A stretch of 10,999 nt of DNA, from positions 1-10,999 of the forward strand of contig NZIT01000029.1 of assembly GCA_002691725.1 (NCBI GenBank), given 5' to 3'. Shown piece by piece: positions 3,030 through 6,794 of the stretch. This DNA is from SAR116 cluster bacterium (GTDB taxonomy: Bacteria > Pseudomonadota > Alphaproteobacteria > Puniceispirillales > UBA1172). The notes beneath the pieces are model-generated. The model had not been told where the DNA came from, did not search any database, and saw only the letters and a list, made by a program, of their open reading frames with translations. Each line of letters begins with the position of its first letter. The first letter of the stretch is position 1. Both the position numbers and the translations under genes were made by a program.

Positions 3030-3239
3030 TTATTCCACTACCTTAATGTTCATAGCACAAAGCTTGCCATTTTTAGCTTCTGCCATTTCATATTCGACAG
3101 CTTGACCTTCTGCTAATTCAGATAGACCGGCTTCTTGAACTGCACTGATATGGATAAACGCATCTGAACCACCTTCATCAGGCTCAATAAATCCGTATCC
3201 TTTAGTGGTATTAAACCATTTGACTTTGCCTTTTGACAT
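3030..3239 (-). CDS. CspA-family cold-shock protein
   Basis: A 69-residue single cold-shock domain, a five-strand OB fold that binds single-stranded RNA and DNA and acts as an RNA chaperone. Landmarks: KWFN (7-10), RNP1 as KGYGFI (13-18) and RNP2 as DAFIHIS (26-32); length is normal for the family. I start at the ATG giving MSKGKVKWFN, because AAGGTG (3246-3251) stands at normal spacing before it. An in-frame GTG three codons earlier overlaps that Shine-Dalgarno and would add only three residues. RNP1 has Tyr where E. coli CspA has Phe, a common variant. The 5' leader is unusual: a tandem repeat array abuts the ribosome binding site. A terminator-like hairpin follows the stop. Confidence 0.96.
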   Translation of the reverse strand: MSKGKVKWFNTTKGYGFIEPDEGGSDAFIHISAVQEAGLSELAEGQAVEYEMAEAKNGKLCAMNIKVVE

Positions 3240-3251
3240 GTTCGTCACCTT

Positions 3252-3384
3252 GTCGTTAGCCCCAGGGGTCGTTAGCCTCAGCGGTCGTTAGCCTCAGGGG
3301 TCGTTTAGCCCCAGGGGTCGTTTAGCCCCAAGGGTCGTTTATCCTCAGGGGTCGTTTAGCCCCAGAGGTCGTTATTCTCTGGGG
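3252..3384 (-). repeat. Eight tandem 16-17-bp repeats in the csp 5' leader
   Basis: On the transcribed minus strand the units follow the consensus CCCTGRGGCTAAACGAC. Plus-strand unit starts are 3252, 3268, 3284 (16 bp each) and 3300, 3317, 3334, 3351, 3368 (17 bp each); the three nearest csp have lost one A. AACGAC is invariant in all eight, while the CCCTGRGG part varies. The last unit touches the AAGGTG Shine-Dalgarno. Where one unit's GGGG meets the next unit's CCCC, a short hairpin with an A-rich CUAAACGA loop can form, so the array could fold into a string of small hairpins. No spacers are present, so it is not CRISPR. An in-frame stop in unit 3 argues against a coding extension of csp. 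Confidence 0.9.
3360..3384 (-). promoter_or_regulatory. Perfect 8-bp hairpin at the distal end of the csp leader array
   Basis: CCCCAGAG (3360-3367) and CTCTGGGG (3377-3384) are exact reverse complements around a 9-nt loop. On the csp mRNA this would be the first and strongest hairpin of the leader, formed by the two most divergent repeat units, with the invariant AACGAC exposed in its loop. The stem departs from the repeat consensus on both sides yet stays fully paired, which hints at selection for structure. No T tract follows, so I do not call it a terminator. Confidence 0.5.
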
Positions 3385-3421
3385 AGGGAAGATTAAAAAT
3401 AATTACAATTTTATAACTTAT

Positions 3422-3463
3422 ATTATACAGCATTATAGATGGTGCAGATTTCAGGTAAGACAA
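3422..3463 (-). promoter_or_regulatory. Candidate csp promoter region
   Basis: Two TATAAT hexamers read on the minus strand (plus positions 3422-3427 and 3432-3437). Upstream are only weak -35 candidates, TTGTCT (3458-3463, 20-bp spacer) and TTACCT (3453-3458, 15-bp spacer). Use of either -10 box would give a leader of about 175-190 nt carrying the whole repeat array. The spacing is not ideal, so the -35 assignment is tentative. No terminator separates this region from the upstream dehydrogenase gene, so some readthrough is possible. Confidence 0.35.
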
Positions 3464-3475
3464 GTTTTCAATGAT

Positions 3476-4494: not shown

Positions 4495-6120
4495 ATGCAC
4501 GTAGCTGACCAAATTATTGATACGATACTTGAGGCTGGCACAGATACTGTCTTTTCACTTTCTGGCAACCAGATTATGAAAATCTATGATGCCGCGTTTG
4601 ATAAAGATATCAGAATAATCCATACTCGCCATGAAGCTGGTGCCGTGTTCATGGCAGATGGCTATGCGCGGTCAAGTCACCGGACAGGCGTGGCTTTATG
4701 CACGGCCGGCCCAGGCTTTACCAATGCGCTCGGGCCGCTTTTCAGTCTGAAATTATCAGAATCCCCCATCGTGCTGATTACCGGAGATAGCCCCGTTGCA
4801 GATGACGCAAGAGGCGGCTTTCAAGAACTTGATCAAACGGCTATTTCTGCTGAACTAGTGAAGGAAACCTGGCGGCTCACCAACAGCACTAATATCGGCA
4901 GTGTTATCCGTGAAGCGATAATACTTGCCCGTTCAGGGCGTCATGGCCCTGTTCATTTAGCAATACCCGAAGATGTGCTGACAGAGCCTGCACAGCCGTT
5001 TTTATTTTCATTTGATGATATGACTGATCGCATCGGTTATTCGATCGCCGCCACTGACCTGACGGCAATTACGCGCGCGCTGGATAGTTTTGATAAACCG
5101 CTTATTGTGACGGGTGCCACCATCGCCCCTAACCGTTGCCACGATATGATTAAGCCCCTATCGGAAACCCATCATATTCCTGTCATTTCCTTGACCAGCC
5201 CGCGGGGTTTGCGTGATCCTATGCAAGGGAAGTTGCAAGATGTTCTGAAATCAGCGGATGGGATTATTCTGATGGATAAAGACCCTGATTTTTCTCTTGG
5301 ATTTGGTTCGCCAGAAATTATGCCAGCGTCAAGACTGGTGGTTTGCGCCGCCCAATCTGAAACGGTCTCGCTATGCAATCAGGTGTTTCACGGCAATATG
5401 ATATGGGGGTGCAGTGCCGATCCTATGCAAACGATGAAGGCTCTCAGCCAAGCATCTTTGCGGCGGCGCTCGTCAGCGTGGAAAAAGTCGGTTGAAACAT
5501 TACTGGCCAAGCGCCCTGATGCTGTGACAATAAAAGACAAATCGGCACAGATCACACAGATTACTCCAGCCCGTATCATGCAGGGCTTTGCTAATTGCAT
5601 TGACCCTAATAAGCCGCCGCTAGTCGTTTGTGATGGCGGTGAGTTTGGGCAATGGGTTCAAGCCGGCCTGCCTGATCCTAAGGTGATGGCGGCGCGCACA
5701 TATACTAATGGCATTTCAGGCGGAATTGGCGGTGCGCTCCCTCAAGCTATCGGTATTGCCATTGCTAATCCTGACCAACATGTTGTCGCCTTTATGGGTG
5801 ATGGCAGTGCTGGCTTTAATCTGCCTGAAATAGAAACGGCCAGACGTGCCAATCTGTCGATCACGTTTATTATCGGTAATGATTATCGCTGGGGGGCAGA
5901 AGTCGAAATTCAGAAAAATCGATATGGCGAGGACCGTGTCCACTCATGCGATTTAGATGCAGAAACCCGATATGATCTGATCGCAGAAGGGTTCGGCGTT
6001 AACGGCAAATTGGTCACAGCCCCTGATCAGATTGAATCCGCCATGCAAGAGGCGTTTTCCTCACATGGTGTATCGGTGATTAATATTCTGATGACAGGCA
6101 TGGCCGCGCCATCGTTCTAA
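4495..6120 (+). CDS. Thiamine-diphosphate-dependent enzyme, acetolactate-synthase large-subunit type
   Basis: A 541-residue three-domain ThDP enzyme. The N-terminal pyrimidine-binding domain has the cofactor-activating Glu at E47 (RHEAGAVFMADGYAR), AGPGFTNALG (71-80) and FQELD (109-113), as in acetolactate synthase. The middle domain spans roughly 190-320. The C-terminal diphosphate-binding domain has GDGSAGF from G435 and the metal-ligand Asn at N462, but continues NDYRWG where most relatives read NNxxxG. The family condenses or decarboxylates 2-oxo acids. E47 argues against true glyoxylate carboligase, which lacks this Glu. No regulatory subunit gene (ilvN) is adjacent, so branched-chain amino acid synthesis is unlikely to be its role. 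The start follows a weak GAAAG. A 14-bp tandem repeat covers its stop codon. The exact reaction is unknown. Confidence 0.85.
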   Translation: MHVADQIIDTILEAGTDTVFSLSGNQIMKIYDAAFDKDIRIIHTRHEAGAVFMADGYARSSHRTGVALCTAGPGFTNALGPLFSLKLSESPIVLITGDSPVADDARGGFQELDQTAISAELVKETWRLTNSTNIGSVIREAIILARSGRHGPVHLAIPEDVLTEPAQPFLFSFDDMTDRIGYSIAATDLTAITRALDSFDKPLIVTGATIAPNRCHDMIKPLSETHHIPVISLTSPRGLRDPMQGKLQDVLKSADGIILMDKDPDFSLGFGSPEIMPASRLVVCAAQSETVSLCNQVFHGNMIWGCSADPMQTMKALSQASLRRRSSAWKKSVETLLAKRPDAVTIKDKSAQITQITPARIMQGFANCIDPNKPPLVVCDGGEFGQWVQAGLPDPKVMAARTYTNGISGGIGGALPQAIGIAIANPDQHVVAFMGDGSAGFNLPEIETARRANLSITFIIGNDYRWGAEVEIQKNRYGEDRVHSCDLDAETRYDLIAEGFGVNGKLVTAPDQIESAMQEAFSSHGVSVINILMTGMAAPSF

Positions 6121-6150
6121 TTCCATCGTTCTGATTCCATCTTATCTGGA
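6109..6150. repeat. 14-bp tandem repeat over the stop codon of the ThDP enzyme gene
   Basis: CCATCGTTCTAATT (6109-6122) is followed directly by CCATCGTTCTGATT (6123-6136), one mismatch in 14, and then by a decayed third copy beginning CCATCTTATCTG (6137-6150). The first copy supplies the last Ser-Phe codons and the TAA stop. The period is not a multiple of three, so the later copies are outside the reading frame. Looks like recent replication-slippage duplication. Confidence 0.75.
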
Positions 6151-6155
6151 TTTAT

Positions 6156-6209
6156 CTGATCTTAATCTTCTTGCGCGGGTTAACTTTCTTGTATGGGTTA
6201 ATCGTCTTG
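6156..6209. repeat. 18-bp triple tandem repeat over the stop codon of the GST-like gene
   Basis: Read on the minus strand, three adjacent 18-mers share CAAGA and an internal TTAA with a TAA stop: CAAGACGATTAACCCATA (6192-6209), CAAGAAAGTTAACCCGCG (6174-6191) and a third, CAAGAAGATTAAGATCAG (6156-6173). The first contains the real stop of the GST-like gene. Because the period is a multiple of three, the stop codon is repeated in frame three times. With the neighbouring 14-bp repeat it fills the spacer between the two convergent genes; I see no terminator hairpin there. Confidence 0.7.
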
Positions 6210-6794
6210 TCTGGAGACGACTTTTTGAACTGCTGGGCGGCTGTCAACACTATCATATATTGCCCGCAGTTTTGGACGACCGGCAAAACTTTCCTCTAAA
6301 TGCTCATCCCATGTCAGCAGCATAAATAGATAATCATCTGCCACCGTTGCCTGGCCGCCGACCAGATAATCACTTGGCAAGGCTTCAACATGATCATAGA
6401 CCACCCGCATCTCTGCCAGCGCCAAGGCTCTGACAACATCCTCCTCACCATAGCGATCGGGATAGTGAAACCGCAATATCGCCGAATAAAGCGTTGTCGC
6501 AAGATACGTTATCCATGATAAAAATTGCGCATATGATGGGTCATCTGGCGCTGGGGCTAAGGCATGTTTGCTATCATGCTTCAATAGCATCAGCACAATA
6601 GCAAGGCTTTCAAAGACGGGTTTACCATCATCGGTGATAAATACGGGTATTCGCCCATAAGGAGAAATCGCACGAAAGTCTGGCGATTTTCGCTCATCAT
6701 CAGTGGGATAGATAATATCACAATTAAGCCCAAGCTCTTCCAGCATAATCTCAACTATGAGCGAGCCAGCCCCATGCTTTGCATAAAGTTTCAT
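6198..6794 (-). CDS. Glutathione S-transferase-like protein
   Basis: A 198-residue protein with the two-domain GST layout. The N-terminal thioredoxin-like half begins MKLYAKHGAGS, with S11 a candidate thiol-activating residue. It continues with GRIPVF (47-52), which carries the cis-Pro P50 that contacts glutathione, and E62-S63, the pair that binds the gamma-glutamyl group in GSTs. The remainder is an all-helical domain. Likely cytosolic glutathione conjugation or isomerisation; the substrate is unknown. AAGGA precedes the ATG at normal spacing, and it begins 34 bp after the uronate-dehydrogenase-like gene on the same strand, probably as the last gene of that unit. Slightly short for a GST but complete. 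Its stop codon lies inside an 18-bp tandem repeat. Confidence 0.85.
   Translation of the reverse strand: MKLYAKHGAGSLIVEIMLEELGLNCDIIYPTDDERKSPDFRAISPYGRIPVFITDDGKPVFESLAIVLMLLKHDSKHALAPAPDDPSYAQFLSWITYLATTLYSAILRFHYPDRYGEEDVVRALALAEMRVVYDHVEALPSDYLVGGQATVADDYLFMLLTWDEHLEESFAGRPKLRAIYDSVDSRPAVQKVVSRQDD

Follow-up and report, generated by a model that had tools for sequence, protein, structure and literature searches.

The csp locus and its tandem array

The window analysed here, a stretch of 10,999 nt, is contig C107 of a 2.12-Mb draft genome that is 88% complete and is referred to below as G000, the genome carrying the array. On the minus strand lies a csp gene with a single cold-shock domain (3030..3239; PF00313, E 1.1e-22), which starts with an ATG at 3239 and is flanked by genes for an EamA transporter and an NAD-binding dehydrogenase. 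The best match to this gene in a collection of named genomes comes from Alphaproteobacteria bacterium SI072_bin95 (88% identity), and two further genomes follow at 71%, of which one bears the name SAR116 cluster. The 101 genomes searched include 12 of the family, and the csp ortholog is present in ten of these; it is absent from G003 and G009, in which the best matches reach 1.0e-21 and 4.7e-21, respectively. G003 is also without the neighbouring dehydrogenase (best match 33% identity), in a search that did not include G009.

Upstream of csp, minus-strand positions 3384-3252 split exactly into eight tandem units of 17, 17, 17, 17, 17, 16, 16 and 16 nt (five of 17 and three of 16) with the consensus CCCTGGGGCTAAACGAC, and TRF reports the array at 3252-3373 with a period of 17, 7.4 copies and a score of 174. 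The order of the units in the 133 bases ahead of the Shine-Dalgarno (SD) sequence is CCCCAGAGAATAACGAC, CTCTGGGGCTAAACGAC, CCCTGAGGATAAACGAC, CCTTGGGGCTAAACGAC, CCCTGGGGCTAAACGAC, CCCTGAGGCTAACGAC, CGCTGAGGCTAACGAC and CCCTGGGGCTAACGAC. A first-pass annotation of this DNA had described eight units of 16-17 bp with an invariant AACGAC, the last of them touching the SD, and all of this is confirmed by TRF and by the exact split: each of the eight units terminates in AACGAC, and the SD (AAGGTG; 3246..3251, minus strand) begins directly after position 3252. Units 1 and 2 (3351..3384, minus strand) contain a perfect 8-bp inverted pair, CCCCAGAG and CTCTGGGG, around AATAACGAC. The array is far above chance expectation, with a TRF score of 174 as compared to a top score of 56 among 300 first-order Markov shuffles of positions 3201-3450.

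A conserved promoter-like element upstream of the array

At 3437..3464 on the minus strand is an element of the form CTTG-N18-CCATCT, which resembles RpoH (sigma-32) promoters, and CTTG-N18-CCATNT is present at identical spacing upstream in all ten orthologous csp leaders (G000, G001, G002, G004-G008, G010 and G011). A CTTG -35 with a CCCATNT-like -10 is the form of RpoH promoters, and the csp element is a candidate of this type. Because the array is situated between this conserved element and the SD, it most likely belongs to the csp mRNA leader, as the annotation had proposed. Its further claim, that the array lies between a probable csp promoter and the SD, holds for the conserved CTTG-N18-CCATNT element, although a search of the csp strand between 2900 and 3600 turned up no promoter of the sigma-70 type. 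Assuming that transcription starts 7 nt past the -10-like element, at about 3429, the leader would begin with an AU-rich 5' part (3385..3429, minus strand). The available part of PMC3441632 reports that the TTG and -10 bases weigh in RpoH promoters and does not contain the term 'cold shock'; in the available part of PMC11813361, that term occurs only in one reference-list entry.

A similar element, CTTGACAG..CCATAT with a spacing of 19, precedes groES in seven of seven genomes of the genus, while the other six of the 13 groES loci fetched, all from outside the genus, are without such a match at the groES start. The spacing therefore differs by one between csp (CTTG-N18-CCATNT) and groES (CTTG-N19-CCATAT). 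By eye, the RpoH-like promoter of groES in the genus (L192, L193, L195, L196, L198, L199 and L201) is followed by an inverted repeat that we take to be CIRCE-like, an arrangement that suggests a putative double heat-shock control of groES in the genus. A search of the G000 genome with the pattern CTTG-N17-CCCATNT returned six matches, as compared to two for the control, and none looked like the promoter of a gene, since five are located within ORFs and one separates two convergent ORFs; the csp promoter, with its ACCAT, is not covered by this pattern.

As a separate observation, a second RpoH-like sigma factor, which scored 286-296 bits and thus below the family cut-off of 323, is present in all seven csp-bearing genomes searched (G000, G001, G002 and G004-G007) and is missing from G003. 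This one absence in the genus is only a hint of a possible link between the csp ortholog and the sigma factor, and the presence of the sigma factor in G012, G013 and G015, from which the csp ortholog is absent, argues against a tight one.

Unit number in orthologous csp leaders

Counted by eye, there are eight units in G000, three degenerate units in G006, and one weak GC version each in G004 and G001, where a single GACCC..GGGCAAAACGAT stands ahead of the SD; the AAGGTG SD itself is common to all four genomes. The first and last units of G006 resemble, again by eye, the first and last units of G000, unit 1 (within 3351..3384) being a match between the two. Eight relatives have 81-98 nt between the end of the -10-like element and the ATG, as compared to 113 nt in G006 and 197 nt in G000, and this distance rises from 81 to 113 to 197 along the series of one, three and eight units; the excess in leader length corresponds to about two extra units in G006 and about seven in G000. 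At a tolerance of 3 mismatches, the paired unit is found in only one of 136 genomes of the order, and there at the csp locus only. G000's species is represented by one genome in these comparisons.

The first-pass annotation had asked whether copy number and AACGAC are conserved across csp upstream regions. Copy number varies from one to three to eight, and the G006 units end in AACGAC, AATAAC and AACTAC, so that the motif is kept in one of three. It had also named absence of the array from all close relatives as an observation that would count against its reading, and this is largely what is seen: the long array is present in none of them, and G006 alone has a degenerate three-unit form. Imperfect head-to-tail copies of a unit within the 10-100 bp range, with a copy number that differs among close genomes at one locus, are as expected of an intergenic minisatellite (VNTR). 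What seemed an odd repeat becomes a series of one, three and eight units at one orthologous leader, which is a natural set for testing whether hairpin number has an effect.

Tandem repeats elsewhere in the genome and genus

Within the G000 genome, 88% complete as assembled, the unit with up to 2 mismatches is found at the csp locus and as one single copy at C82 only, and matches with 3 mismatches are no commoner than those of a reversed control pattern. A dispersed repeat of the REP, BIME or MITE type, for which many copies would be expected, was therefore ruled out for this assembly. Short intergenic tandem arrays are common in the genus. At a TRF score of 50 or more, G000 yielded 31 arrays from the 200 kb sampled, and 10 of these fall within the roughly 16 kb that are intergenic; the corresponding figures are 19 arrays for G006 (159 kb), with 11 in roughly 13 kb of intergenic DNA, and nine for G003 (40 kb), with three in roughly 5 kb. 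Markov sequence of 200 kb contained no such array, whatever its class. The intergenic units are mostly 10-22 bp long and most of the sampled arrays have 2-4 copies, with at least five copies in two of the ten intergenic arrays of G000 and one of the 11 of G006. The csp array is an extreme case among the arrays of the genus, because its score exceeds that of every intergenic array sampled (174 versus 121) and because arrays of at least five copies are rare between genes. In csp leaders, a strong array within 250 nt is seen in one of 126 loci, which is the window's own, and eight others have weak arrays (score 40-81); these 126 remain from 130 csp loci after removal of four that lack a recognised csp start, and they include two pairs in which the same contig is represented twice. 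Two further short tandem arrays in the window, at 6109-6141 (14 bp x 2.4) and 6162-6214 (18 bp x 2.9), sit at the convergent ends of genes for a TPP enzyme and a GST-like protein.

Upstream repeats with variable copy number have been described for hmw1A and hmw2A of Haemophilus influenzae, where, according to the available part of PMC2424069, more copies of a 7-bp repeat generally mean less transcript, although not always for hmw1A. As in that system, short tandem units lie upstream of one gene and differ in copy number between relatives. The csp unit differs in being 16-17 nt long, self-complementary and located beside the SD of a csp gene rather than upstream of a surface adhesin gene; moreover, the differences in copy number seen here are between relatives, and any effect on transcript would be a putative one.

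A hairpin ahead of the csp SD in the family

The 30 nt before the SD fold better than their shuffled versions (1000 shuffles, p 0.000-0.037) in six of the nine relatives (L022-L027). Of 122 other genes that have an SD and non-coding sequence upstream, only 5 reach 0.037; the 122 control genes, called by a simple ORF heuristic, come from the sampled DNA of G000, G006 and G003 and not from the six hairpin genomes. Mann-Whitney comparisons of relatives with control genes give 1e-5 on all nine and 6.5e-5 on the seven less redundant ones. No significant SD-proximal hairpin is seen in G006 (L019, 0.31), G004 (L020, 0.15), G001 (L021, 0.18) or G000 (0.85). The stems are unrelated in sequence, with TGACCC/GGGTCA in G008, ACCGC/GCGGT in G010 and GAAAAAC/GTTTTTC in G011, while the promoter and SD are constant. 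In a MAFFT alignment of eight SD-proximal stretches (without G000 and G006) the stems do not occupy the same columns, and a matching pair that changes from C-G to U-A was noted, by eye, for G005 and G002 only. Much of this marine bacterial family appears to keep a hairpin, rather than a sequence, ahead of the csp SD, with folding retained in six of nine relatives while the sequence turns over. Neither this hairpin nor the series of one, three and eight repeats was found described in our searches of the open-licence literature and Rfam. Other csp leaders of the order (L143, L040, L045 and L146) also seem, by eye, to carry a hairpin before the SD.

By sequence comparison, the last unit of the array (CCCTGGGGCTAACGAC; 3252..3267, minus strand) occupies the place of the relatives' single SD-proximal hairpin. 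We also considered an element acting at the DNA level, in which repeated sites for a DNA-binding protein would lie downstream of the promoter. Repressors commonly have tandem sites directly past a promoter, and the array is placed in this manner; such an element is nevertheless highly improbable given that no repeated copies of the unit turn up at other sites in the genome or order and that six relatives keep an RNA hairpin but not its sequence.

Predicted folding and access to the ribosome site

Folded alone, the array has a predicted energy of -45.0, as compared to a mean of -35.05 for dinucleotide shuffles (z -3.14), although the longer piece 3220-3400 gives a z of only -1.21. The suggestion in the first-pass annotation that GGGG of one unit pairs with CCCC of its neighbour to give a string of beads describes a possible fold, but pairing is not specific to neighbours: every unit head is nearly self-complementary, so that all combinations of two units can pair, at 5-8 of 8 positions. 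Stems in G000 would form between units, rather than within them, because CCCCTGGGG leaves no loop space. There is no sign of a tuned, fixed register of the beads: over all permutations of the unit heads, 14% of orders reach the observed 29 of 32 standard pairs and 9% do as well as the observed order when only Watson-Crick pairs count, and among 300 orders compared by folding energy the share is 15%. The linkers are predicted to be mostly unpaired (mean pairing 0.01-0.35).

The annotation had offered a modular RNA thermosensor as one role for the array, with stems that melt or rearrange with temperature and so open or close the SD. The E. coli cspA leader is not known to be repetitive. The csp leader examined here resembles it in length (about 190 nt inferred, as compared to 160 nt in E. 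coli), and the cspA mRNA is a thermosensor whose leader is a temperature-dependent structural switch, as set out in the available part of PMC6386945. By contrast, the predicted cost of opening the region from SD to ATG in the G000 leader is hardly tied to unit number, being 10.0-10.7 kcal/mol at 4 °C, 8.4-9.0 at 15 °C, 7.1-7.5 at 25 °C and 5.6-5.9 at 37 °C with any number of units from zero to eight, and 9.2, 7.8, 6.6 and 5.0 kcal/mol at these temperatures with nothing upstream of the SD. No Rfam family matches the window at gathering score, and in silico we see none of the SD occlusion and release expected of an RNA thermometer or cspA-type thermosensor. Within the limits of nearest-neighbour folding, the array would neither hide nor free the ribosome site in a temperature-dependent manner, and a thermosensor role is very doubtful. 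The proposal of an anti-SD element fares no better, since the longest complement to the SD within the array is 4 nt, G-U pairs included.

To see whether the 30-nt stretch before the SD, or the array, keeps the SD free, each was compared with 200 shuffles of itself: the native cost of opening the SD lies under the shuffle mean in nine of ten leaders at 15 °C and in nine of ten at 37 °C, with a fraction below 0.05 only for L022, in which the fraction of shuffles that are as good at 37 °C is 0.04 for the SD and 0.02 for the RBS. The native G000 array is slightly, and not significantly, kinder to the SD than its own shuffles (fraction as good 0.20-0.29, and 0.18-0.29 over all values for G000).

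Proposed origin of the array and its possible effects

The array resembles a recent repeat that expanded in place more than it does a thermometer built into the leader. We consider it reasonably probable that it is a lineage-specific minisatellite in the csp 5' leader of a presumably SAR116-type alphaproteobacterium, and that it grew from the SD-proximal hairpin segment and has little or modest effect. Growth would have started from a short segment (CCC..GGG plus an A-rich linker) directly upstream of the csp SD, which replication slippage or unequal exchange may have multiplied into the array. Because the hairpin falls short of significance in four leaders (G006, G004, G001 and G000), the proposed descent of the unit from it is argued from position and from the G004 and G001 sequences. 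In the RNA, GC-rich stems would alternate with single-stranded UAAACGA linkers, the ribosome site would not be gated, and the effect of the array on csp expression would be small or absent. A neutral or near-neutral reading is the best supported one, even though the retention of a self-complementary head and AACGAC by all eight G000 units is compatible with selection.

The same invariance of AACGAC, together with the predicted single-strandedness of the linkers, might favour a multi-site landing pad, which the annotation had suggested for Csp itself and on which Csp, S1 or another single-strand RNA binder would occupy the repeated UAAACGAC linkers and regulate csp. A precedent is offered by the TAACTGA direct repeats of Beggiatoaceae, which likewise lie near the start codon, there within several nucleotides, and for which Csp, S1 and Csr have been proposed as binders; these have a 7-nt unit, occur at about 170 places and are not predicted to fold, at least as reported in the available part of PMC4679880, whereas the csp array is found at one place and folds strongly. 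A sequence-specific protein site at AACGAC is, however, weakened because the closest relative, G006, does not keep the motif in two of its three units; young duplicates have bases in common without selection, and the array unit is not repeated at other genes of the genome. We therefore regard a landing pad as improbable.

A bulk or stability effect, and not a thermometer, is the functional reading that survives. Here the string of hairpins would raise csp translation, as a barrier or standby platform, or would slow mRNA decay stepwise with unit number. Such an effect is consistent with the presence of hairpins with unrelated stems at the equivalent place in six relatives and with strong predicted folding that leaves the RBS cost nearly unchanged. 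It also resembles the physical-barrier and standby structures described in PMC11087576, where, among tandem upstream structures, 5'UTR G-quadruplexes raised translation, more so with an added hairpin, in a manner that bypasses RBS accessibility, which the authors do not invoke in the available part of the paper. On the other hand, those are synthetic constructs with a measured effect and G-quadruplexes 46 bp upstream of the SD, while the csp array is known from sequence and folding; in the same available part, no single hairpin raised translation alone, two hairpins only equalled one G-quadruplex, and inhibition is cited for structures near the start codon, whereas the array here touches the SD. 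In addition, the long form is present in one genome only and G006 preserves the sequence of the unit poorly, and a functional bulky leader is in our judgement possible but unlikely. A bolder version, to which we assign a rather small chance, combines growth and function: slippage would provide a heritable volume control, in which nothing but the bulk of the hairpin string would determine how strongly an RNA chaperone gene is translated or how long its mRNA lasts, the gene being driven by a promoter of the heat-shock type. If this were true, an ancestral SD-proximal hairpin would have been amplified into a leader that is tunable by copy number without gating of the ribosome site.

The genus also has a second class of csp genes (L133 and L134, and also L129-L132), in which a different leader is conserved, reading by eye about GTCAACG.TTTGCTTCTC. 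In L133 and L134, the csp paralogs of G005 and G002, a CTTCT/AGAAG stem seen by eye around the SD resembles a simple SD-masking hairpin.
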